Assembly: GCA_014381305.1 (NCBI GenBank)
Contig: JACNLW010000047.1
Location: forward strand, 1 to 52,817
Source: Planctomycetota bacterium
GTDB taxonomy: Bacteria; Planctomycetota; Phycisphaerae; Phycisphaerales; SM1A02
Reading direction: 5' to 3'
DNA length: 52,817 nt
Position numbers and translations under genes: made by a program. Positions 1,874 through 52,516 of this stretch are shown in pieces. Position 1 is the stretch's first letter; every line of letters starts with the position of its first letter. The notes beneath the pieces were generated by a model, which saw only the letters and a list, made by a program, of their open reading frames with translations, was not told the DNA's origin and did not search any database.

Positions 1874-1894
1874 AAACTCACCGGGGGTGAGTTT
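1874..1894. repeat. Short hairpin H1 of repeat locus A
   Basis: A perfect 9-bp inverted repeat AAACTCACC / GGTGAGTTT has a GGG loop and is followed by TTCTT, so it could act as a weak terminator. It recurs 125 bp downstream and, decayed, again 126 bp after that. It marks the start of each tandem unit of locus A. The stretch 1801-1873 before it shows no gene or clear structure. Confidence 0.75.
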
Positions 1895-1918
1895 TTCTTG
1901 AAGATGGCAGGAAACTGA

Positions 1919-1992
1919 CCCCGGGTGAAATAATCGCAAATAGTACACCTAAGATTAGATAACGCGAAATGATGCGATTAATTCACCCGCGG
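1919..1992 (+). repeat. Imperfect inverted repeat A1 (family member with 36-nt centre)
   Basis: The left arm CCCCGGGTGAAATAATCGCA pairs with the right arm TGCGATTAATTCACCCGCGG except at two positions. The centre 1938-1973 is unrelated to that of A2 although the arms are nearly identical. The orientation is defined by the left arm reading TGAAATAATC and the right arm reading GATTAATTCA. The spacer 1895-1918 between H1 and A1 is also conserved in the next unit. Confidence 0.85.
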
Positions 1993-1998
1993 TCTAAG

Positions 1999-2019
1999 AA
2001 ACTCACCGGAGGTGAGTTT
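1999..2019. repeat. Short hairpin H2 of repeat locus A
   Basis: This is a second copy of the AAACTCACC / GGTGAGTTT hairpin, with a GGA loop. It is preceded by TCTAAG, which also precedes the decayed third copy at 2125. The spacer 2020-2043 closely matches the spacer after H1. Confidence 0.75.
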
Positions 2020-2043
2020 ATCTTGAAGGTAGCAGGAAACTGA

Positions 2044-2118
2044 CCCCGGGTGAAATAATCGCTGATATCGCAAAGCGTGATGATCTAAATCACACTAGTG
2101 CGATTAATTCACCCGCGG
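2044..2118 (+). repeat. Imperfect inverted repeat A2 (family member with 37-nt centre)
   Basis: The arms at 2044-2062 and 2100-2118 are the same as in A1, with the same two mismatch positions. The centre 2063-2099 is different and contains its own small hairpin, GTGAT / ATCAC. After it, 2125-2145 holds a decayed third H hairpin whose right half is lost. That relic ends 5 bp before the batE stop codon. Confidence 0.85.
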
Positions 2119-2150
2119 TCTAAGAAACTCACCGCAGGTAGTCACTTCCT

Positions 2151-2936: not shown

Positions 2937-4636
2937 AGAATTGACTCCACCAATGTTTCTGCATCTTTTGCCAACGTATCATCATTACACCCACCAAACT
3001 GCATTGCATCACAACGCGAAAGCAGGGTGTCGATATCCTTCGAAACATCGCTACCTGCTTTTACATTTTGTAATTCTCTCAATGCAGTTGAAAGCGATTG
3101 CACTTGTTCTTCACCAACAAGCGATTTTGCAAGGCGGATGGAATAAGTGGCATGTTTGATCCTGCCTTTTGTCGAGCGTAAAGATTTTTGTGAACGCTTT
3201 CTATACGCAAGTATGAAGAAGATACTTGCCAATAGTGTTGGTGGAAGTGCAATCGCCCCAATCAAAAGAGGCGAAAGTGTGATGCGCTGGGATTTGAGAA
3301 GATCTTCGCCAGTGTAATTCGCAAGAATGCCACCATCTACTTCAGTAAGTGGAGTCGCCTGAGTTGTTCTTGCAATGTCGCCAACAAGATCACTTGCCGA
3401 AACAGTAGCAACAGCTTCTACTGAAATCGTGATTGGTTTTGTCCAGACAGTTTGATACGTGTCTGAGATAGGGTCGTACCAACTCATCGGCAGCGGTGGA
3501 ATTTCAGTGACACCTTCACTTCGAGGTCGAATTGATTGCGTAAATGTCTTTGTTCGTCCTTCTGCGATTCCGCCAAGTGGTGTGTCTGGAACTCGGAAGT
3601 GGTCTGTAAGCGCCGGCACTCGATCAAGATGCGGCGCAGAAAGAAAGTCAAGATTGATTGGGCCATTCGTGCGGTCAGTAATTCGCATCGTTAATGTAAT
3701 TGGCTCGCCAACTTTGACATGGGTTGGATCAGCGATTACACGAAAATCGTAGTTCCCAACAGCGCCGCTGTACCACATTGGTTGATCTTTTGAGGGTGGC
3801 GTAAGTACATTAATCGTTGGCATTTCACCATGGGCAGCGATGAGATGAGATTGCGTTACATTGTAGGAATCGCCACGGAAAAAACCAATGCCTCGCGCTT
3901 TTTGAAGTGCCAATGGGTAGTTCATAAGGATCGACACAGGTTCCAATATGAAGGGGCCTGACGTTTCAGGCCAAACTGTAGTGTGTATGCTCACTTCATA
4001 AAACGTAGTAGGAATCCCAGCATCCGTTTTGCCTTGTATCTGACGAAGTTGATACTGTTGTTCTTCAAAAGACTTTGTGAAAATTCCTAGATTACGATCT
4101 AGTAGTGAAACCATAGCTTGCGCATTCAATGTCACGCCAAGGTTTGGATCGGTAAACTGTTCGATAAATATTTTGAGCGTAAGATCAATAGGTTGACCAA
4201 TATACACGTCGCCGTTTGTTCCACTGATTTCTAACTCGAGCGCACCTCCCGTAGGCGGATCTTGAATCGTAATTGTTTGAGGTGATGATTGGAACCCTCT
4301 GTCACCCACTTTGAAAGTGAGCACAGGGATTGTAAAAACGCCCGTTTCTTTTGGAGTAAGTACAAAAGTGAAAATACGTTTTGCAGTACGTGTCATTTTC
4401 CCATTAATAATTGTTGTTTGAGTAGATCTCTGCTCGTTTGGGATGCGGTCAATTGTGAAACCATCGATTTCAGGAATGGAGGGGCTTAGTGGCGATTCGA
4501 TATTTTCATACACAACGACAAGATTCATCGGGACATTTACATACCCAGTTGATGGCGGCATTTGGACATACACTTGCTGCGCAAAAGTAGGCGATGCAAG
4601 GAATAGAATATAAATGAAAGTTCGAACTATAGACAT
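2933..4636 (-). CDS. batD: BatD-like membrane protein
   Basis: BatD-family protein of 567 residues from the ATG at 4636. That start puts a clean signal peptide (ending near TFAQQ) at the N-terminus; the longer frame to 4693 would run into batC. The ectodomain is a set of beta-sandwich-like segments, followed by a membrane helix near residues 455-480 and a short basic cytoplasmic tail. The start is 7 nt after the batC stop. BatD proteins accompany the VWA proteins BatA and BatB and probably assemble with them in the envelope. The stop overlaps the batE start as ATGA. Confidence 0.85.
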   Translation of the reverse strand: MSIVRTFIYILFLASPTFAQQVYVQMPPSTGYVNVPMNLVVVYENIESPLSPSIPEIDGFTIDRIPNEQRSTQTTIINGKMTRTAKRIFTFVLTPKETGVFTIPVLTFKVGDRGFQSSPQTITIQDPPTGGALELEISGTNGDVYIGQPIDLTLKIFIEQFTDPNLGVTLNAQAMVSLLDRNLGIFTKSFEEQQYQLRQIQGKTDAGIPTTFYEVSIHTTVWPETSGPFILEPVSILMNYPLALQKARGIGFFRGDSYNVTQSHLIAAHGEMPTINVLTPPSKDQPMWYSGAVGNYDFRVIADPTHVKVGEPITLTMRITDRTNGPINLDFLSAPHLDRVPALTDHFRVPDTPLGGIAEGRTKTFTQSIRPRSEGVTEIPPLPMSWYDPISDTYQTVWTKPITISVEAVATVSASDLVGDIARTTQATPLTEVDGGILANYTGEDLLKSQRITLSPLLIGAIALPPTLLASIFFILAYRKRSQKSLRSTKGRIKHATYSIRLAKSLVGEEQVQSLSTALRELQNVKAGSDVSKDIDTLLSRCDAMQFGGCNDDTLAKDAETLVESIL

Positions 4637-13741: not shown

Positions 13742-13816
13742 AGGGTGAAATAATCGCACTATGCGTAAGTGTAAAACGGGGCACTCCGAGGCGATTAATT
13801 CACCCCCGGTTAGTTT
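13742..13816 (+). repeat. Imperfect inverted repeat B1 (family member, 33-nt centre)
   Basis: The left arm AGGGTGAAATAATCGC and right arm GCGATTAATTCACCC enclose a 33-nt centre (13758-13790). The left arm lacks the outer AACTAACC found in B2, so this copy is truncated on that side. The centre is identical to the centre of B2. The stretch 13693-13741 between the gdhA stop and B1 shows nothing recognisable. Confidence 0.85.
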
Positions 13817-13828
13817 CCACCACAAAAA

Positions 13829-13851
13829 GTTAACCCGGGGTTCATTAATCG
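13829..13851. repeat. Repeat half-site between B1 and B2
   Basis: This segment, containing AACCCGGGGTTCATTAATCG, resembles one arm of the repeat family (ACCGGGGGTGAATTAATCG) but has no partner arm. Confidence 0.5.
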
Positions 13852-13852
13852 A

Positions 13853-13941
13853 AAAAACTAACCGAGGGTGAAATAATCGCACTATGCGTAAGTGTAAAAC
13901 GGGGCACTCCGAGGCGATTAATTCACCCCCGGTTAGTTTTT
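13853..13941 (+). repeat. Imperfect inverted repeat B2 (family member, 33-nt centre, T-run at the end)
   Basis: Arms of 28 nt (13853-13880 and 13914-13941) pair with only two mismatches. The inner part is AGGGTGAAATAATCGC on the left and GCGATTAATTCACCC on the right, and the outer parts are AAAAACTAACC and GGTTAGTTTTT. The 33-nt centre is an exact copy of that in B1. Because the right arm ends in five T, the transcript could also fold as a large terminator for gdhA. That is inference. Confidence 0.87.
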
Positions 13942-19403: not shown

Positions 19404-20627
19404 ATGAGTGGCAACAGCGACGACCAACAACCAAGAGATGTTTCAAGCCTCCACCTGTGGCAAATCCAATGGGTGCGTGATTCTTTTTTAATATTGGCAA
19501 TCATCTTTGGTGTTTGGCTTGGGTACGCAATGCGAGACATCACGATTCCACTTTTGGTGGCATTGTTACTTGCGTACCTTTTTGAACCACTTGTTTCCTT
19601 TTTAGCAAACCATCCGAAATTTCCTTTAGGAAGAATCCCTGTAATTGTTGGATTGCTGACAGTTGTGACAACGTTCGTTCTATTTGTATTGGTTCTTACT
19701 GTTCCAATGGTGATTTCGCAAACAAGTTCTCTCGTGGGTGATGTTACAAATGGAAAACTTCGTTCGCAGTTAGAAAACGTTACTGCGAAGTATGCACCTG
19801 AAGACATGAAGGATGATATTCAGGAAACGCTTGCGTTTTTACCTTCTGGAAAGGAAGAAAAAATTATTGCGAGCACCACTGTTCCGGTAACTGATGCACC
19901 GCAAGAGAATGACGGGTTGTTAACTATTGCAAAACAAACGGGGGATGTTGCGCTGAAAATTCTCGGGTCGATCGTTCGGTTTGGCATCTTGGCAGTATTG
20001 ATTCCGTTTTACTTTTTCTTCTTTAGTTTGTGGTTTCCGATGGTTGTAGTTTTTGCAAGAAGTTTGATTCCTGATGATGGAAGAGATACGATCGAATCGT
20101 TGCTTACCAAAATGGATGCTGCTGTTGCAGGGTTTGTGCGTGGGCGCATTGTGATTGCAGCAATCATGGGGGCGACCCTTGCAGTTGGTTGGATGATCAT
20201 TGGAGTTCCTTATGCGATTTTGTTAGGCATTGCCATCGGAATTCTTTGTGCAGTTCCGTTTCTTGGTATTGTTGGCATTCCACTTTCTGTTGGTTTGTTG
20301 TTTCTTGATCAACTTGGTGTTCCCGAAGCGAGTCGGATGACGTGGTGGGGGATTATCCTGTGGCCGTCTCTTGTGTTCGGTATTGTGCAAGCATTAGATG
20401 GTTGGATTTTGACACCACTTATTGCTGGCAAGGCAACGAATCTTGACCCAGTGACCATTTTTGTTGCGGTTCTCGCAGGTGGAAGTGTCCTTGGAGCGTA
20501 TGGGATGTTGCTTGCTGTTCCAGTTGCAGCGTGTATTAAAATAACGTTGCAAGAAGTGGTGTTGCCAAATATCCGCGCTTGGGCACAAGGTGATGCCAAA
20601 GACCCCTTACCCTTTGAAGATAATTAA
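19404..20627 (+). CDS. AI-2E/PerM family membrane permease
   Basis: The 407-residue protein has two N-terminal hydrophobic helices, a polar loop and a C-terminal helix cluster with IGVPYAILLGIAIGILCAVP and LAVPVAACIKI, as in AI-2E exporter/PerM-like proteins. Substrates in this family vary and include autoinducer-2 and sodium/proton exchange, so none is assigned. The ATG at 19404 is preferred over a TTG at 19386 that overlaps the previous gene. The last codons and the TAA stop lie inside the left arm of inverted repeat C1, so the repeat supplies the end of the reading frame. Confidence 0.85.
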   Translation: MSGNSDDQQPRDVSSLHLWQIQWVRDSFLILAIIFGVWLGYAMRDITIPLLVALLLAYLFEPLVSFLANHPKFPLGRIPVIVGLLTVVTTFVLFVLVLTVPMVISQTSSLVGDVTNGKLRSQLENVTAKYAPEDMKDDIQETLAFLPSGKEEKIIASTTVPVTDAPQENDGLLTIAKQTGDVALKILGSIVRFGILAVLIPFYFFFFSLWFPMVVVFARSLIPDDGRDTIESLLTKMDAAVAGFVRGRIVIAAIMGATLAVGWMIIGVPYAILLGIAIGILCAVPFLGIVGIPLSVGLLFLDQLGVPEASRMTWWGIILWPSLVFGIVQALDGWILTPLIAGKATNLDPVTIFVAVLAGGSVLGAYGMLLAVPVAACIKITLQEVVLPNIRAWAQGDAKDPLPFEDN

Positions 20628-20711
20628 CCGCGGGTGAATTTTTCGTGTCCATGTGCGCGGAAAGCCAGTCTCTGCTTTATCAACGAAAATTTCACCCGGG
20701 GTTAATTATCT
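20618..20711 (-). repeat. Imperfect inverted repeat C1 (family member, 36-nt centre)
   Basis: Arms of 29 nt (20618-20646 and 20683-20711) pair with two mismatches, from AGATAATTAACC outside to TTTCGT inside. Read on the minus strand, the first arm contains CCCCGGGTGAAA and the second contains ATTCACCCGCGG, the same arm asymmetry as in locus A. The centre is 20647-20682. The left arm overlaps the permease stop codon. Confidence 0.87.
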
Positions 20712-20795
20712 ATTGTGTTTTACCAAGGTATGAATTAATCACGTACATTTTGGCAAGGATCACACACTTCAGGTCAATCAGTGATTATTTCACCC
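20693..20795. repeat. 103-bp exact direct repeat, copy 1
   Basis: The segments 20693-20795 and 20823-20925 are identical base for base, offset by 130 bp. Each includes the right-arm end of one unit, the linker ATCTATTGTG and most of the next inverted repeat. Confidence 0.9.
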
Positions 20796-20810
20796 CCGGG
20801 TTAATTATCT
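20721..20810 (-). repeat. Imperfect inverted repeat C2 (family member, 38-nt centre, one arm decayed)
   Basis: The right arm GTGATTATTTCACCCCCGGG pairs with TGAATTAATCAC at 20731-20742. The outer left arm (TACCAAGGTA) has diverged. The centre is 20743-20780. Orientation is minus by the arm asymmetry, and the linker TTAATTATCTATTGTG follows. Confidence 0.75.
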
Positions 20811-20822
20811 ATTGTGCCATCA

Positions 20823-20925
20823 CACCCGGGGTTAATTATCTATTGTGTTTTACCAAGGTATGAATTAATCACGTACATTTTGGCAAGGATCACACACTTC
20901 AGGTCAATCAGTGATTATTTCACCC
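20823..20925. repeat. 103-bp exact direct repeat, copy 2
   Basis: Second copy of the 20693-20795 segment, preceded by a short ATTGTGCCATCA joint. The half-site CACCCGGGGTTAATT at its start has no partner arm. Confidence 0.9.
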
Positions 20926-20940
20926 GCGGTTAATTATCTA
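20851..20940 (-). repeat. Imperfect inverted repeat C3 (family member, 38-nt centre)
   Basis: Same centre (20873-20910) and inner arms as C2. It differs only at the outer right arm, which reads CACCCGCGGT here against CACCCCCGGG in C2. It ends in the fourth TTAATTATCTATTGTG of the locus, 17 bp before the ffh stop. Confidence 0.78.
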
Positions 20941-46275: not shown

Positions 46276-47520
46276 TTATAGGCAGGGGCCCCAATCAGCA
46301 ATCAATTGCAAGAGATCATCAGTTCCAACGATGCCGTCGTTGTTGATGTCTGCTTGCGCATCATCACTTTCCCAAAGACTGACAAGAACCAAAATGTCGT
46401 CAACTCCAATATATCCATCTCCATTGACATCACTGTTGCAACAACTTTCGTTGAATATATTTCCTCCAGCATCAACGTAGTTGCCCCAAGTTGCAACGTG
46501 TATGTTTTCACAAAAGGTATTGTCTTCGAGCACTGGCATGGCACCAATTTTAGTGCCACCATCACTTTGAAGTCCTCCTGCAGCAAGAGTCTCAGTGGCG
46601 GTGTTGTGTTCAATGAAGCAGCGAGCAATGGTGGGTTCTGCGCCCTTCGTGTGGCAGCGGATGCCACCGCCACGTGTTGCAGTGTTGTATTCAATTGTGC
46701 AATGAGAGATCAAGTCCAACGCATTCGAATAACACATTAGACCGCCACCTCCTTTCCCTTGACTGTGGACGGCTTCGTTATTCGCGATGTAAGTATGATC
46801 GATTATGGACATGCTTGGGTAGTTATTTATACCATCTAAGCAAAGTCCGCCACCGGTTGACGCAGTGTTGTATGTGATTTCACAATTTGTAATTGTTACC
46901 TTAGAATAAATTGCAGCGTACACGCCACCACCTTTACTTTGTTCAGTTTCTCCATTTAAAACATCAGCGGTATTGCCCATAATGAGACAATTGTTGAGTG
47001 TGATATCTGCATAATCTATAACCGCAATACCTCCGCCATATCCTGGAAGTGTTCCGAATTCAGATGTATAAACAGGTGCGGTGTTATTTGAAATAATACA
47101 ATCTTCGAATCGAGGAGCACTATTGACACAAAGTATTCCACCGCCGCGAGCAGGGGAATACACGGGGTCAGGTGCATTGCAATTTGTGATGGTGAATCCC
47201 TCTATCAGTGTTGCCATTGTTTCACCAGTCTGACAAATGATTCCTCTTCGTACATGTTGCCCATCGATGAAAGTTTTTTCAGCGCCTTCTGTCGATTGCA
47301 ACGTAATTGCTTTTCCAAGTGTGTCAACTACATTCTCACTTGTTGACACATAGATGCCTGGGAGGACGTTGATCACATCTCCGTCACTTGCAGCCGCAAT
47401 AGCTTCTTGTATTGTTTCAAAATCTCCTGCACCTCCCTTTACCACAGTCCAATCTATCGCTGAGGCAAATTGGGTTATTGTCATTGTCAATAAAACGCTT
47501 CCTATTAGTCGAATTTGCAT
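46276..47520 (-). CDS. Secreted parallel beta-helix protein with dockerin-like tail
   Basis: The 414-residue product has a signal peptide (to about residue 22). A right-handed beta-helix follows, opening with DFETIQEAIAAASDGDVINV, as in pectate-lyase-like and DUF1565-type proteins, with repeated GGG-turn coils such as STGGGLCL and RGGGIRC. The C-terminus is a dockerin-like pair, SDVNGDGYIGVDDILVLV and ADINNDGIVGTDDLLQLI, ending WGPCL. AAAGGATC precedes the ATG. No catalytic site is evident; binding or cleavage of polysaccharide is possible. It follows the subtilase gene in the same direction but after a terminator. Confidence 0.85.
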   Translation of the reverse strand: MQIRLIGSVLLTMTITQFASAIDWTVVKGGAGDFETIQEAIAAASDGDVINVLPGIYVSTSENVVDTLGKAITLQSTEGAEKTFIDGQHVRRGIICQTGETMATLIEGFTITNCNAPDPVYSPARGGGILCVNSAPRFEDCIISNNTAPVYTSEFGTLPGYGGGIAVIDYADITLNNCLIMGNTADVLNGETEQSKGGGVYAAIYSKVTITNCEITYNTASTGGGLCLDGINNYPSMSIIDHTYIANNEAVHSQGKGGGGLMCYSNALDLISHCTIEYNTATRGGGIRCHTKGAEPTIARCFIEHNTATETLAAGGLQSDGGTKIGAMPVLEDNTFCENIHVATWGNYVDAGGNIFNESCCNSDVNGDGYIGVDDILVLVSLWESDDAQADINNDGIVGTDDLLQLIADWGPCL

Positions 47521-47706: not shown

Positions 47707-50184
47707 TTATTCGCAGGGGCCCCAGTTGCCAACGAGCAAGAGTATATCTTCAACATTGACAACGCCATCACCATTGATATCAGCAGGTCCGTTGCCACCC
47801 CATTGATCGATCACAGCAAGAACATCTTCTACGCCAACAGCACCATCACCATTAATATCGCCTTGACAAAGATTTTCGTTGCAATAGTTGTATCCAATTT
47901 TAACTGCATCGACTGCTGCTTCGACAATCGAGCCAGCGTTTAAATCGCCAACTGTAAAACGAATTTTCATTGTGCTGCTTGGGGAGATGTTTGGAATATC
48001 TGCAACAACCCAATTTCGAGTAATCCATCCACCATTAACTTCTGATCCAGAAGGACCGACTGTGTCGAGTGCATTCCAAGTCGCCCCGTTATCGTCTGAA
48101 ATTTCAACAACGAAGATATCGTTCAGTGGATCTGCGCCGTTGCAGGTTGAACCATTGTTATACCAGAAGTCATATGAAATGACTGCTGCAGTTGCTGAGG
48201 CATCCATTGCAGGGGAAGTAAGAACTGTTGTTCCGTCGTCGAGGTCTTCATCAGTTGCATTGCCAGTGACATAGCACATACCAGAGCCATCTGAGTCACT
48301 GCCCGGATCACAACGGAAGCCACCCTGTGTTGGAACAACTCTTGTCCAGTTGCCTGTACCAGCACCTGCATCTACTTGCCAACCTGTGTCGGTGTTGAAG
48401 TTGTCATCAAAGCTTGATTCATAACCCGACCACGCTTCTGCTGACCAAGTCGAGTCGGGAGCACTGTATGGACTCGATGACATTTCGCCATCAGTCGTTT
48501 CTGCAGTAAAGTAATATTGCACAGTAGCACCACAATCAAGTTCAGGGAAAACAGCGCGGTAATTGGACCCGCCGTCGTGTACGAGAGGGATAGAACTGAT
48601 TTGACCAACGATGTGCAAGCGTGCGGTGCTTGGATCAGGTGTTGCAGAACTTCCACTGATTGTAATTGAAATTTCACTTCCACCAGTTGGTTCGAGCCAC
48701 GTTGGTCGACCACTCGGGTAATCCCACGTGAGTGAAACTGTTTCGAGCGCCATGTTTACTGCTGCAACGCAATCAATAATGCCATGACCGTAGTCGTTGT
48801 CTTCACCCGCAGAGCCTAGATCAACGGCAGTTGCGTACAAAATTTCTTTGATCATTTCGACTTCAAGATCGGGGTTTGCTTGCACCATCAATGCAACTGC
48901 GCCGTTGATATGTGGAGAAGCCATAGAAGTTCCGCTGTAAGAGGAGTATCCTCCCGGAACACTTGAGTATGTGTTTACACCCGGAGCAGAGATGTCTGGT
49001 TTAATTGCAGACGCGCCAGAAGGTGTACAGTTTGTTGGTCCACGCGAAGAAAAACTTGCAATTGGAAAACTTGCGTTGTACGGATCAATTGCTGCAACGG
49101 CGCATGTTCGGTAGTCGTCAGTAGCTCGGTCGCCCGGACGACGCAAACCGGAACTTCCTTCGTTGCCCGCTGAGAATAGAACAACGCAGCCAGCAGCTTC
49201 GAGTGCATCTAGATAAGTCCAAAATGTTTGATCACAGTTTGGGTACCCATGACTTGATGTTAAGCCCCAAGAGTTTGAACATACACGTGGGACATCCCAT
49301 GCAGTTGCTGGATCGCCGTCTGGATCGAGAAACCACTGGAAAGTTTGGATCGAATCAGCAACTGTTTCTGCAATTGAACCACGATCAATACCTGCAGAAG
49401 TAATCCAGTGTGCATCAGGTGCAACACCAATTCCAAGTCCGGGTGATCCACCACAAACAGTGCCCATGGTATGACTACCGTGGCTTCCGCTATCGAATGG
49501 GAAACTATTGTTGTTTGTGTATGGATCAAGAAAAGCCCACTCGGGGTGACCAGAATATTCAGGCCGCAATCCAGCCCATCGACTAGCCAATGCTTCGTGG
49601 TTTCCATCGACGCCAGTATCTAAAGTAGCAACAAGCACACCTTCTCCGGTGTACCCCATGTTCCATACTTCGGTTGCGCGGATTGCTGTAATGCCCGGTT
49701 CAACGCCGCCGCGATTGTTGTCGCCCTCTCCGACATCACCCATTTCTACAGGCGTGACGAGTTCGATTTCGTAATTCAAATAAATGTGACCAACGTCGCT
49801 ACGTTTTGCAAGTTCCGTAATCACTGCGGGTGTCGCTTCGATTCGTATTACGTTTGAAATCCAAAATGGTTTAACATTGTCAACAGATTTGTTTTGTTGT
49901 AATGACTGAAGAATAGATGCTTGTGATTCTGTTGCAACACTTTGTAGTGTTTCAACTACAAGTTCATGCCGAGCAGCGCGTTTGAATCTTTCGCGGCTGA
50001 TTGAATTCGAAAGTGATTTGATATCAACTTGTTCATCCATATATACAAGTGCAGAAACTGTGCCGCTTGGGCCAACTTCATGCATTGCATCTTGCAAATT
50101 TTCATCTATATGTATTTCAGATACGGCTCCGGAGAGTACGCAAGCGCTGAGTAGGGTTGATAATAAAATTTTGGCTGTGGTCAT
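47707..50184 (-). CDS. Secreted S8 subtilisin-like protease with dockerin-like tail
   Basis: The 825-residue product starts at the ATG at 50184 with GGAG nine bases upstream (AAGGAGAAAAAGATG). It has a signal peptide, an inhibitor-I9-like propeptide (about 25-150) and a subtilase domain. Its catalytic triad is D189 in VATLDTGVDG, H235 in GSHGSHTMGT and Ser in the GTSMASPH motif. Beta-sandwich domains follow, including an MAM/CUB-like segment rich in Gly and Asp. The tail is a dockerin-like pair GDINGDGAVGVEDVLAVI and ADINGDGVVNVEDILLLV ending NWGPCE. It is likely an extracellular protein-degrading enzyme retained at the surface through the tail; that retention is inference. Confidence 0.9.
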   Translation of the reverse strand: MTTAKILLSTLLSACVLSGAVSEIHIDENLQDAMHEVGPSGTVSALVYMDEQVDIKSLSNSISRERFKRAARHELVVETLQSVATESQASILQSLQQNKSVDNVKPFWISNVIRIEATPAVITELAKRSDVGHIYLNYEIELVTPVEMGDVGEGDNNRGGVEPGITAIRATEVWNMGYTGEGVLVATLDTGVDGNHEALASRWAGLRPEYSGHPEWAFLDPYTNNNSFPFDSGSHGSHTMGTVCGGSPGLGIGVAPDAHWITSAGIDRGSIAETVADSIQTFQWFLDPDGDPATAWDVPRVCSNSWGLTSSHGYPNCDQTFWTYLDALEAAGCVVLFSAGNEGSSGLRRPGDRATDDYRTCAVAAIDPYNASFPIASFSSRGPTNCTPSGASAIKPDISAPGVNTYSSVPGGYSSYSGTSMASPHINGAVALMVQANPDLEVEMIKEILYATAVDLGSAGEDNDYGHGIIDCVAAVNMALETVSLTWDYPSGRPTWLEPTGGSEISITISGSSATPDPSTARLHIVGQISSIPLVHDGGSNYRAVFPELDCGATVQYYFTAETTDGEMSSSPYSAPDSTWSAEAWSGYESSFDDNFNTDTGWQVDAGAGTGNWTRVVPTQGGFRCDPGSDSDGSGMCYVTGNATDEDLDDGTTVLTSPAMDASATAAVISYDFWYNNGSTCNGADPLNDIFVVEISDDNGATWNALDTVGPSGSEVNGGWITRNWVVADIPNISPSSTMKIRFTVGDLNAGSIVEAAVDAVKIGYNYCNENLCQGDINGDGAVGVEDVLAVIDQWGGNGPADINGDGVVNVEDILLLVGNWGPCE

Positions 50185-50302
50185 CTTTTTCTCCTTGTTC
50201 GCCGAAGCGTGTACTGCCACTTAAAATGTAGGGTTTTATCCTACCACTCTATTAGACAACAGAAACGTTGCGGTTGCAAGAATTAACTCAAGAAAGACCG
50301 AT

Positions 50303-52516
50303 TTACTGGTGGCAAGGGCCAAAACTATCAATTATCACCAGTAAATCATCGATACTGACAACACCATCACCCGTGAGATCATACGCTGAATCCGTAGCCT
50401 CCCATTCGCTAAAGAGAATGAGCATGTCATCGATGTCAACTTCATTGTTGCCGTTGAAATCAGCCATACATTCGCATTCATCAGGGACACCATTCTCGTC
50501 GGAGTCATAACTGTCACCATTTAGAATGTCAATTGCGTCTTCGATACAGTTTGCATTGCAATCGTAGACCACTGGGCAGGGGCACTCGTCAGGAACTCCA
50601 TTGCCATCAAGGTCTAGGCTCGTGCCATTTTCGATGTCTAGGGCATCTTCCACGCAATTATCATTGCAGTCTACGAGGGGAGCACATTCGCATTCGTCTG
50701 GAACACCATCGCCGTTGGCATCTGCACTCGTTCCGTTTTGGATGTCGATTGAATCTTCAATGCAGTTTTCATTGCAGTCTACTGTCGGCGTGCAATTGCA
50801 TTCGTCTGGAATACCATCACCGTTTGAATCCAAGCTTGTACCATCAAGGATGTCAGTGTAATCATCAATGCAATTTCGATTGCAATCAAGCGCAAATTCG
50901 TGGCTTTCTACAACTCGAATAATTTGATTTGTATCAAGGTTTGAAGTTGTTTGCACAGTACCTGAAGGCCAAGAAATAGTAACCTCTTCTATGATTGTGC
51001 TTGCGCCTAATCCGAAGTGCGTTCTGAACATGTGTTGTGAGTTATAGCCTGAACCACTTTGGACTTCACGCATTTGGCTTATCAATTCGTTGTTTTCATT
51101 TCGATGCGTGATAGAAACTCTCGTTCCAATCGCAGTACGGTTTGTGACTGTTCCGCAGAGCTCAAATTCAATCCAATGGCTTCCATCATGGTTGGCATTG
51201 CGTATTAATTGATTCATGCCAACTCCTGGGACGGTGGGGCTTCCGCCTACAGTAAACAAATCGATCCAACCATCATTGTCGTAATCAGCCCAAGATGTGG
51301 AGTTCCCATTGTTTGGTGCTGAAACGAGAGTTCCAACAGCTACATTTGTAAATGTTAAATCGCCGTTGTTGCGATACAGTCTGTTTGGCGGCACAGAAGT
51401 TCCGAACGAAACTGTGTATAAATCAATCAAACCATCGTTATTGTAATCAGCCATGGAAACACATCGAGTACGAACATTTTCAGTGATCCCCGCAGATTCA
51501 GAGATGTCTGAGAATGTTCCGTCTCCATTGTTGACATAAAGTTTGGTATATCCTGGATGGTCAGAACAGACTTGGTTGCCAACTAGAATATCCATGTAGC
51601 CATCATTATTGATGTCCCCCCAAGCAACCCCTCGACCGTGACCAACATCAGCAACTCCTGCTTCAGTTGCAACATCAGTCCAGGTTCCGTCACCATTGTT
51701 TTTGAATAACACATTTGTTCTGAATGATGGAGGACTATTATCCTCTGATCCATTCACAACATAGAGATCCGCAAGCCCATCATTATCAAAGTCAGTCCAC
51801 GCAGCGCCACGCCCTTCTTTCCATTCAGCTTCAAGGCTGCCAATACTGTCTCTCACAAATGTATTATCACCTTGGTTGATCATTAGCCAATTCTTCTTAT
51901 GATCTCCTCCAGAATTGGTCACCATTAAATCAACATACCCATCTAAGTTAACGTCTTGCCATGAGACGCCTCGGGGAGACATCCAGTACATTGCGAGTGG
52001 ATTCCCGTTGGTAATATCACTGAACAAGCCAACAGCATCGTGTTGTAACAAGTAGTTTTGATCTTGACCAAAGTTAGTACTTTGTCCGACAAACAAATCA
52101 GGTAATCCATCGTTGTCAATATCAGCCCAAGCTGAATGATGAGAGAGGTCGGATCCAACTGCAGAAATTTCTGTTGCAATATCAACGAATTCTCCACCGC
52201 CGAGGTTTTTTAAGAGTTGGTTTGGTGATCCGAGATATTCGACCCCGTTGTGTTGTCCGAAATGAGTGGCGTATAGATCGAGTAATCCGTCGTTGTTAAA
52301 GTCACACCACGCTGAACCGCGATGGTTTTCGTGCCCTTGCCCAGATGTTACAGATGTTGTAGCATTTTCCCAGAGTGAGTCCACAGAACCATATTGTGGG
52401 TTTGGCATAGATGGCGTCAAGTGTGATTTTGGCGTTGGCAGAGCGAAACCAAGCATCGTGCAAAAGAGAATCACAGCGCCGGAATGTAGGCTATATATAC
52501 GCGATGCGTTCTTCAT
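50303..52516 (-). CDS. Secreted FG-GAP/ASPIC-UnbV protein with 36-residue Cys repeats and dockerin-like tail
   Basis: The 737-residue product has a signal peptide followed by about seven FG-GAP calcium-loop repeats with the core NDGLxDLxV (for example NDGLLDLYATHFG, NDGYMDILVGNQ), forming a beta-propeller. Next comes an ASPIC/UnbV-like domain (GTRVSITHRN, then VQSGSGYNSQHMFRTHFGLG) of the CRTAC1 type. Residues 544-683 are four tandem 36-residue repeats, and the end is a dockerin-like pair finishing SFGPCHQ. Surface adhesion or ligand binding is the usual inference; no enzyme motif is visible. The promoter lies so close to the ATG that the mRNA may lack a leader. Confidence 0.88.
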   Translation of the reverse strand: MKNASRIYSLHSGAVILFCTMLGFALPTPKSHLTPSMPNPQYGSVDSLWENATTSVTSGQGHENHRGSAWCDFNNDGLLDLYATHFGQHNGVEYLGSPNQLLKNLGGGEFVDIATEISAVGSDLSHHSAWADIDNDGLPDLFVGQSTNFGQDQNYLLQHDAVGLFSDITNGNPLAMYWMSPRGVSWQDVNLDGYVDLMVTNSGGDHKKNWLMINQGDNTFVRDSIGSLEAEWKEGRGAAWTDFDNDGLADLYVVNGSEDNSPPSFRTNVLFKNNGDGTWTDVATEAGVADVGHGRGVAWGDINNDGYMDILVGNQVCSDHPGYTKLYVNNGDGTFSDISESAGITENVRTRCVSMADYNNDGLIDLYTVSFGTSVPPNRLYRNNGDLTFTNVAVGTLVSAPNNGNSTSWADYDNDGWIDLFTVGGSPTVPGVGMNQLIRNANHDGSHWIEFELCGTVTNRTAIGTRVSITHRNENNELISQMREVQSGSGYNSQHMFRTHFGLGASTIIEEVTISWPSGTVQTTSNLDTNQIIRVVESHEFALDCNRNCIDDYTDILDGTSLDSNGDGIPDECNCTPTVDCNENCIEDSIDIQNGTSADANGDGVPDECECAPLVDCNDNCVEDALDIENGTSLDLDGNGVPDECPCPVVYDCNANCIEDAIDILNGDSYDSDENGVPDECECMADFNGNNEVDIDDMLILFSEWEATDSAYDLTGDGVVSIDDLLVIIDSFGPCHQ
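50468..50887 (-). repeat. Four tandem 36-residue (108-bp) repeats within the FG-GAP gene
   Basis: Each unit follows DCNxNCIED..DI.NGTS and then D.NGDGVPDEC.C, with six positions of conserved Cys or Asp/Asn spacing. The last unit is shortened to 32 residues before the dockerin-like module. Related single DCNGNGVPDAC units occur in the gene at 1-1727. Confidence 0.88.

Follow-up and report, generated by a model that had tools for sequence, protein, structure and literature searches.

How can two adjacent copies of a repeat agree in almost every part and yet differ in the middle? Locus A (1874-2150) poses this question within the window, by which we mean the whole 52,817-nucleotide stretch analyzed here, contig C88 of a 1.88 Mb genome assembly in 114 contigs (G000). 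The initial annotation argued that plain tandem duplication should copy the center as well, so that the centers had either been replaced or evolve far faster than the arms. We examined the anatomy of the locus, its relatives within the genome and across the genus, and the genes that may have spread it.

Anatomy of locus A

Locus A consists of two tandem units, 1874-1998 (125 bp) and 1999-2124 (126 bp), each composed, in this order, of a 21-nt hairpin (H1), a 23-nt spacer, a long inverted repeat with 19-nt arms (H2) and a closing CTAAG. H1 of unit 1 (1874-1894) is REP/TIR-like, reads AAACTCACC GGG GGTGAGTTT and holds GGGGTGAG, which fits the motif GGGGWSAS. It is followed on the forward strand by a conserved spacer (1895-1917) of a class common to 8 of 54 elements, the H2 left arm (1918-1936), a 38-nt center (1937-1974) and the right arm (1975-1993), with CTAAG running to 1998. 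Unit 2 repeats the layout with H1 at 1999-2019 and, again on the forward strand, a conserved spacer (2020-2042) that departs from that of unit 1 at 3 of 23 positions, a left arm (2043-2061), a 39-nt center (2062-2100), a right arm (2101-2119) and CTAAG to 2124. The center lengths of 36 and 37 nt given in the initial annotation correspond to ours minus the edge C...G pair, which was there assigned to the arms, and the spacer measures 22-24 nt depending on where the arm start is placed. Behind the two units lies a third H1 (2125-2140), decayed as had been proposed, with its left half (2125-2133) intact and its right half lost.

Chance does not account for this arrangement: with up to three mismatches, H1 has four matches in the window (two sites, each on both strands) against 0.00 expected, and the left-arm motif has nine against 0.24 expected. 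These counts and the coordinates above confirm the earlier description of two 125-126 bp units with a common hairpin, a near-identical spacer and common arms. The two centers are 61.5% identical; over 5000 shuffles of center 1 the mean identity is 58%, and 32.7% of the shuffles do at least as well (P = 0.33); since this identity lies within the shuffled range, the description of the centers as unrelated also stands. Both centers recur at other places in the genome.

Recurring centers in a mosaic family

The genome holds many copies of both parts. Exact matches to the H1 pattern AACTCACCGNNGGTGAGTT number 149 (79 forward, 70 reverse) and those to its control 0, and the arm pattern GGGTGAANTAATCGC, with one mismatch allowed, turns up 117 times, its reversed control once. 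We count at least 54 H2 elements, a lower bound drawn from 188,233 of the 1,878,999 bases; 55 were extracted, and removal of an overlapping spurious join (C81:6110-6184) left 54 for the class and stem statistics. Contigs of the assembly often end inside or beside arrays (for example C2, C7, C10, C15, C23, C24, C66, C69 and C91), which likewise makes the copy numbers lower bounds. In the surveyed stretches the commonest distance from one H1 to the next is 46 or 47 nt, found 38 times.

Center length is 35-40 nt in 53 of the 54 H2 elements. Average linkage at 70% identity sorts the centers into classes of 22, 14, 6, 2 and 2 members and eight singletons. The center of unit 1 belongs to the class of 22, also represented in C46, C18 and C96, and its closest relatives are C96:11481 and C96:11663 (87%). 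That of unit 2 falls in the class of six, and the entire unit 2 H2 element is identical over 77 nt to C63:14675-14751. The initial annotation had spoken of a new center each time, a wording that cannot be kept, given that the unit 2 element recurs unchanged on C63 and that tandem repeats elsewhere have copied their centers: C85 carries three tandem elements with identical centers, and C54 two whose centers are one difference apart. Its premise that plain tandem duplication copies the center is borne out by these two arrays and by locus B (13743-13937), where two copies of another H2 subfamily, with outer stem GGTTAGTTT, have an identical 35-nt center, the first copy being without its outer left arm. 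At locus C (20623-20940), an H2 element with the inner stem TTTT/AAAA precedes two tandem copies of a related palindrome (TGATTAATTCATACC... type) that have one common center.

This recurrence bears on whether the centers might be captured foreign sequences, as in a CRISPR-like memory or an integron-like cassette system. Near-constant center length and unrelated centers in adjacent units are what such a system would give, yet 46 of 54 centers fall in classes of 2-22 members, and we consider capture very unlikely indeed. Following a check proposed in the initial annotation, we compared both locus A centers with 50,697 phage and 72,556 plasmid records and found no match at E up to 1; together with the recurrence of centers, this led us to reject the CRISPR or memory reading. 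An integron attC identity was likewise rejected: no protein of the genome exceeds the curated cut-off of the integron integrase model TIGR02249 (weaker matches also occur in all 14 controls), locus A holds no cassettes, and there is no room for a gene between its units. An unrelated center between identical arms is, alone, no sign of captured foreign DNA.

A second possibility is that unconstrained loop centers drifted apart from one ancestor after tandem duplication. Within center classes the centers do vary more than the arms, and single linkage at 68% identity joins 45 of 50 centers through intermediates, a chaining for which we dropped that method. However, the locus A centers lack significant similarity although their spacers differ at only three positions, and center classes recur at unlinked loci with different spacers, as is the case for 285 of 339 same-class center pairs. 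We therefore regard fast divergence as improbable, and of the two options offered in the initial annotation, replacement gains support from the recurring classes and mosaic pairings while far faster evolution fails as the main story.

The pairing of spacers, arms and centers was indeed found to be mosaic, though not random. Among pairs of elements with the same spacer class, 72 of 126 differ in center class; the remaining 54 exceed the value of every one of 2000 shuffles (29.7 ± 5.9), so that spacer and center class are not independent and much co-descent remains. Where spacers are at least 87% identical, 21 of 59 pairs have centers below 60% identity. A Mantel test of center against spacer gave rho = 0.03, with 101 of 500 permutations at least as high, in a set reduced to 50 elements by merging copies that agreed in the element and its 10-nt flanks, unit 2 and its C63 copy among them (the class test used 54). 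The mosaic shows most sharply in individual cases. The left-arm variant CCCCTTGG occurs in C18, C59 and C96:11481 with three different centers of two classes, and C96:11481 and C96:11663 have an identical center and right arm behind different left flanks. Both cases require center exchange across the family, and the compared copies indicate that centers are exchanged among family members besides being copied by tandem duplication.

Whether exchange took place at locus A itself is a separate matter. Two H1-spacer-H2 composites that already differed may have become adjacent by side-by-side insertion, with no later replacement of a center, and both types do exist elsewhere, that of unit 2 on C63 and the class of unit 1 in C46, C18 and C96. 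We treat this as a serious possibility, though not the one we favor; it leaves the three centers of the CCCCTTGG arm and the identical C96 centers unexplained, so that exchange is still needed. From locus A alone, duplication with center exchange and the side-by-side arrival of two composites cannot be told apart.

Hairpin structure, transposase genes and known repeat systems

In predicted folds of 50 elements, calculated with RNA parameters, the H2 arms can pair into a long stem. Of 45 distinct arm pairs, all show an A.A mismatch in this stem and 39 also a C.C mismatch, fixed mismatches that give the element polarity. Several neighboring positions stay paired through changes on both sides: the innermost is C-G in 26 distinct arm pairs versus T-A in 16, one outside is G-C in 30 versus A-T in 6, and A-T has become T-A in 2. 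In these counts, rows with a one-base left-arm insertion are shifted by one base at the outer positions. Larger variants include TTTT/AAAA in place of the usual TAAT/ATTA in the elements at C81:6042 and window position 20627, and outer ends TAACC/GGTTA in place of GACC/GGTC in some others. H2 arms also multiply alone: two extra left-arm copies precede the C40 element (C40:21304, 21330 and 21356), and successive right-arm motifs are spaced 21-22 nt apart in eight instances. GGGGWSAS, a motif reported for some repeats flanking TIRYT genes (PMC3733652, section 16), fits H1 and, on the complementary strand, also the left-hand end of the H2 elements in the window (GGGGTCAG).

Genes for Y1 transposases (Y1_Tnp over the Pfam cut-off) number three in G000 and ten across the genus, where 4 of 13 genomes carry them. 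Beside the three G000 genes (L061, L062 and L063) neither H1 nor H2 was matched, save one chance-like 10-mer at L062, and we found no Y1 gene bracketed by H2 in that genome. In a congener (G009, with 10 H1 matches to the 149 of G000), H1 brackets a gene on contig C131 for a 238-aa Y1 transposase (L091), assigned to this class by its Pfam Y1_Tnp match and by HUH and tyrosine motifs recognized by eye. H1 copies stand at 2573, 2620 and 2666 before the gene and at 3486 and 3532 after it, at steps of 46 or 47 nt that match the commonest step in G000, and GGGGTGAG occurs seven times in the 600 nt preceding and the 900 nt following the Y1 match. The closest G000 protein is only 52% identical to L091, and a cognate H1-linked transposase was not found in the G000 assembly despite its many more H1 matches. 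Arrays come to within about 300 bases of a contig end in at least nine G000 contigs, so the missing gene may lie in an assembly gap. Contamination of the G009 bin is about 6%; the gene preceding L091 has only a 30% match in G000, so that this contig does not look like an obvious stray from the species of the window.

GGGGWSAS occurs near 7 of the 10 transposase loci of the genus, with a single occurrence at L063. Six of the genes (L061, L063, L085, L086, L089 and L091) have palindrome-like repeats of their own beside them (GGGGTCAG types, GGGGACAG, TTGACTCCGAGTCAA, AACTCACC...), and such genes with their own flanking repeats form a neat set for studying the co-evolution of enzyme and repeat. 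As a possible origin of the centers, the flanks of the transposase genes were tried and rejected: the best scores of centers against the flanks of L061, L062 and L063 were 13.5, 12.0 and 14.0, where shuffled maxima averaged 12.6-13.0 and peaked at 16-17. The flank score of L091 (16.5, with 16.0 the highest of 60 shuffled trials) lies inside a predicted ORF and is not counted as evidence. Separately, a tyrosine recombinase gene weakly similar to integron integrases (L198; G000 contig C4, 6623-7444) adjoins an H1/H2 array near a contig end.

Combining these observations, we regard it as likely that locus A is a two-unit composite array of a REP/TIR-type H1 and a REPIN/BIME-like H2, spread by a Y1 transposase and with centers exchanged through the arms. 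H1 would be a hairpin of the kind recognized by Y1 (HUH) tyrosine transposases of the RAYT/TIRYT group, and such a transposase probably recognizes at least the H1 part. The long hairpin predicted for the H2 arms would contain the fixed mismatches and have as its loop the center, which probably carries little weight for recognition. A Y1 transposase acting on single-stranded hairpins could have spread H1 and possibly H2, and the repeat family is probably mobile. Centers may then have passed from copy to copy through short-tract recombination, gene conversion or template switching, with the identical arms as anchor, while ordinary tandem duplication would in parallel copy the center along with the rest. 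A 1988 review of REP sequences reportedly asks in its title 'evolution by gene conversion?', so conversion as such is an old idea. In a more specific version, the H2 arms would be a dedicated exchange site at which a Y1 transposase, or template switching at the replication fork, would cut or re-prime within the mismatched stem and swap hairpin tips, so that loop cassettes move independently of the sequences flanking them. We consider this version unlikely; such a tip-swapping mode of mosaic formation is described for neither REPINs nor BIMEs in the sampled portions of the literature (PMC3116915, PMC8266576, PMC2817692).

How the family relates to known repeats can be judged from the parts of published descriptions drawn on here. 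REPINs are REP doublets that form hairpins (Bertels and Rainey 2011, PMC3116915). H2 resembles them in its two conserved inverted ends, less conserved spacer and predicted long hairpin, and in being high-copy, outside genes, in tandem clusters and of several flavors per genome; it differs in that its arms were not found adjoining any Y1 transposase gene, that its centers form discrete reshuffled classes and that its arms carry the fixed A.A and C.C mismatches (PMC3116915). With BIMEs it has in common a mosaic of inverted REP-like units, variable linkers and tandem copies (PMC8266576, PMC2817692). Conserved stem mismatches are also known from E. coli REPs, where correcting them impairs cleavage and transposase activity, although SELEX selected them only moderately (PMC8266576). 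H1 shows the TIRtron features of inverted repeats flanking a Y1 gene and GGGGWSAS, as well as dimers at the 46/47-nt step and clusters (PMC3733652); it differs in that a cognate transposase was not found in the G000 assembly. The flanking of a Y1 gene on both sides applies to H1 only, and in one genome (G009).

A conserved GTAG tag is a mark of classical REPs. By eye, none was found where H1 flanks the transposase gene of G009 or beside H1/H2 copies, GTAG occurring singly in the unit 2 spacer; H1 and H2 differ from BIMEs, as far as those are described in the portions sampled, in being of other sequence and without this tag. H2 looks REPIN/BIME-like, with REPIN membership only in part, no H2-bracketed transposase having been found, and we would place the locus A repeat among the REP/REPIN/TIR repeats as a new, lineage-specific member. 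It illustrates a known kind of repeat with unusual clarity, a few recurring versions of its hairpin tip being reshuffled between copies. Its H1 is linked to a Y1 transposase gene in a sister species and its variants make center exchange visible, so that an old question, whether BIME mosaics originate by duplication, insertion or conversion, becomes directly testable in one small genome and its relatives.

Distribution among relatives and genomic context

The gene next to locus A (2151-2936) has an ortholog in all 13 genomes of the genus, with an array beside it in 1 of 13 (G000). At the orthologous site, the other 12 loci, of 2.2-3.8 kb, gave 0 matches to H1 or H2 at up to two substitutions, and the interval between the end of the adjoining gene and a motif closing the facing gene spans 426 nt in G000 versus 96-314 nt in the 12 others. 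Across whole genomes, the H2 pattern was found in one of the genus's 13; H1, sought in 400 genomes sampled from the order, occurs in 3, all belonging to this genus. Used as a query against 101 relatives, the whole locus matched G000, G009 (10 matches) and a member of another family (G080), the last in one 35-nt match (E = 4 × 10−4, 86%) with no exact H1 match. Exact 20-mer H2 patterns had no match in collections of genome and viral contigs from which the own and near genomes may have been excluded. Judged by these comparisons the composite repeat is lineage-specific, a REPIN/TIR-like family that is very repeat-rich in one genome and sparse in a congener.

Different repeat-like stretches were observed downstream of the 2151-2936 ortholog in other species (L179, L184, L188 and L189, in G005, G003, G011 and G008, respectively), which suggests that this intergenic spot attracts repeats. 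The stretch in G005 lies around GTGACAGGCAGCAAG, and a similar one stands beside the array near 1840-1870.

Within G000, 53 of 55 arrays are extragenic (no overlap above 40 nt with predicted ORFs of 110 aa or longer). By their neighbors, 18 are flanked by convergent genes, 14 by co-directional and 12 by divergent ones, while 9 sit at the edge of a surveyed stretch with a neighbor on one side only and 2 overlap an ORF; these counts rest on crude ORF calling, omit blocks shorter than 1200 bases and still include the C81:6110-6184 join. Such positions raise the possibility that the repeats are RNA-level elements, either bidirectional terminators or mRNA stabilizers, kept for function rather than as mobile DNA. 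Locus A itself sits between convergent genes, as do 18 of 44 classifiable arrays compared with 7 of 36 gene pairs in the window, and the H2 stem shows compensatory changes. However, the arrays between divergent genes argue against a simple terminator role, as do, under the same crude ORF calling, those between co-directional genes, and the array is missing at the orthologous site in 12 of 12 relatives. The window has no Rfam match at gathering scores, and membership in an Rfam RNA family was rejected. We find an RNA-level role unlikely as the explanation, and favor mobile repeats with exchanged centers.

Elsewhere in the window, four predicted proteins (90-1727, 46276-47520, 47707-50220 and 50303-52516) end in a paired motif of the type VDDLL...WG...DxDGxxxVDDLL...WGPC, possibly a shared C-terminal calcium-binding or sorting module.
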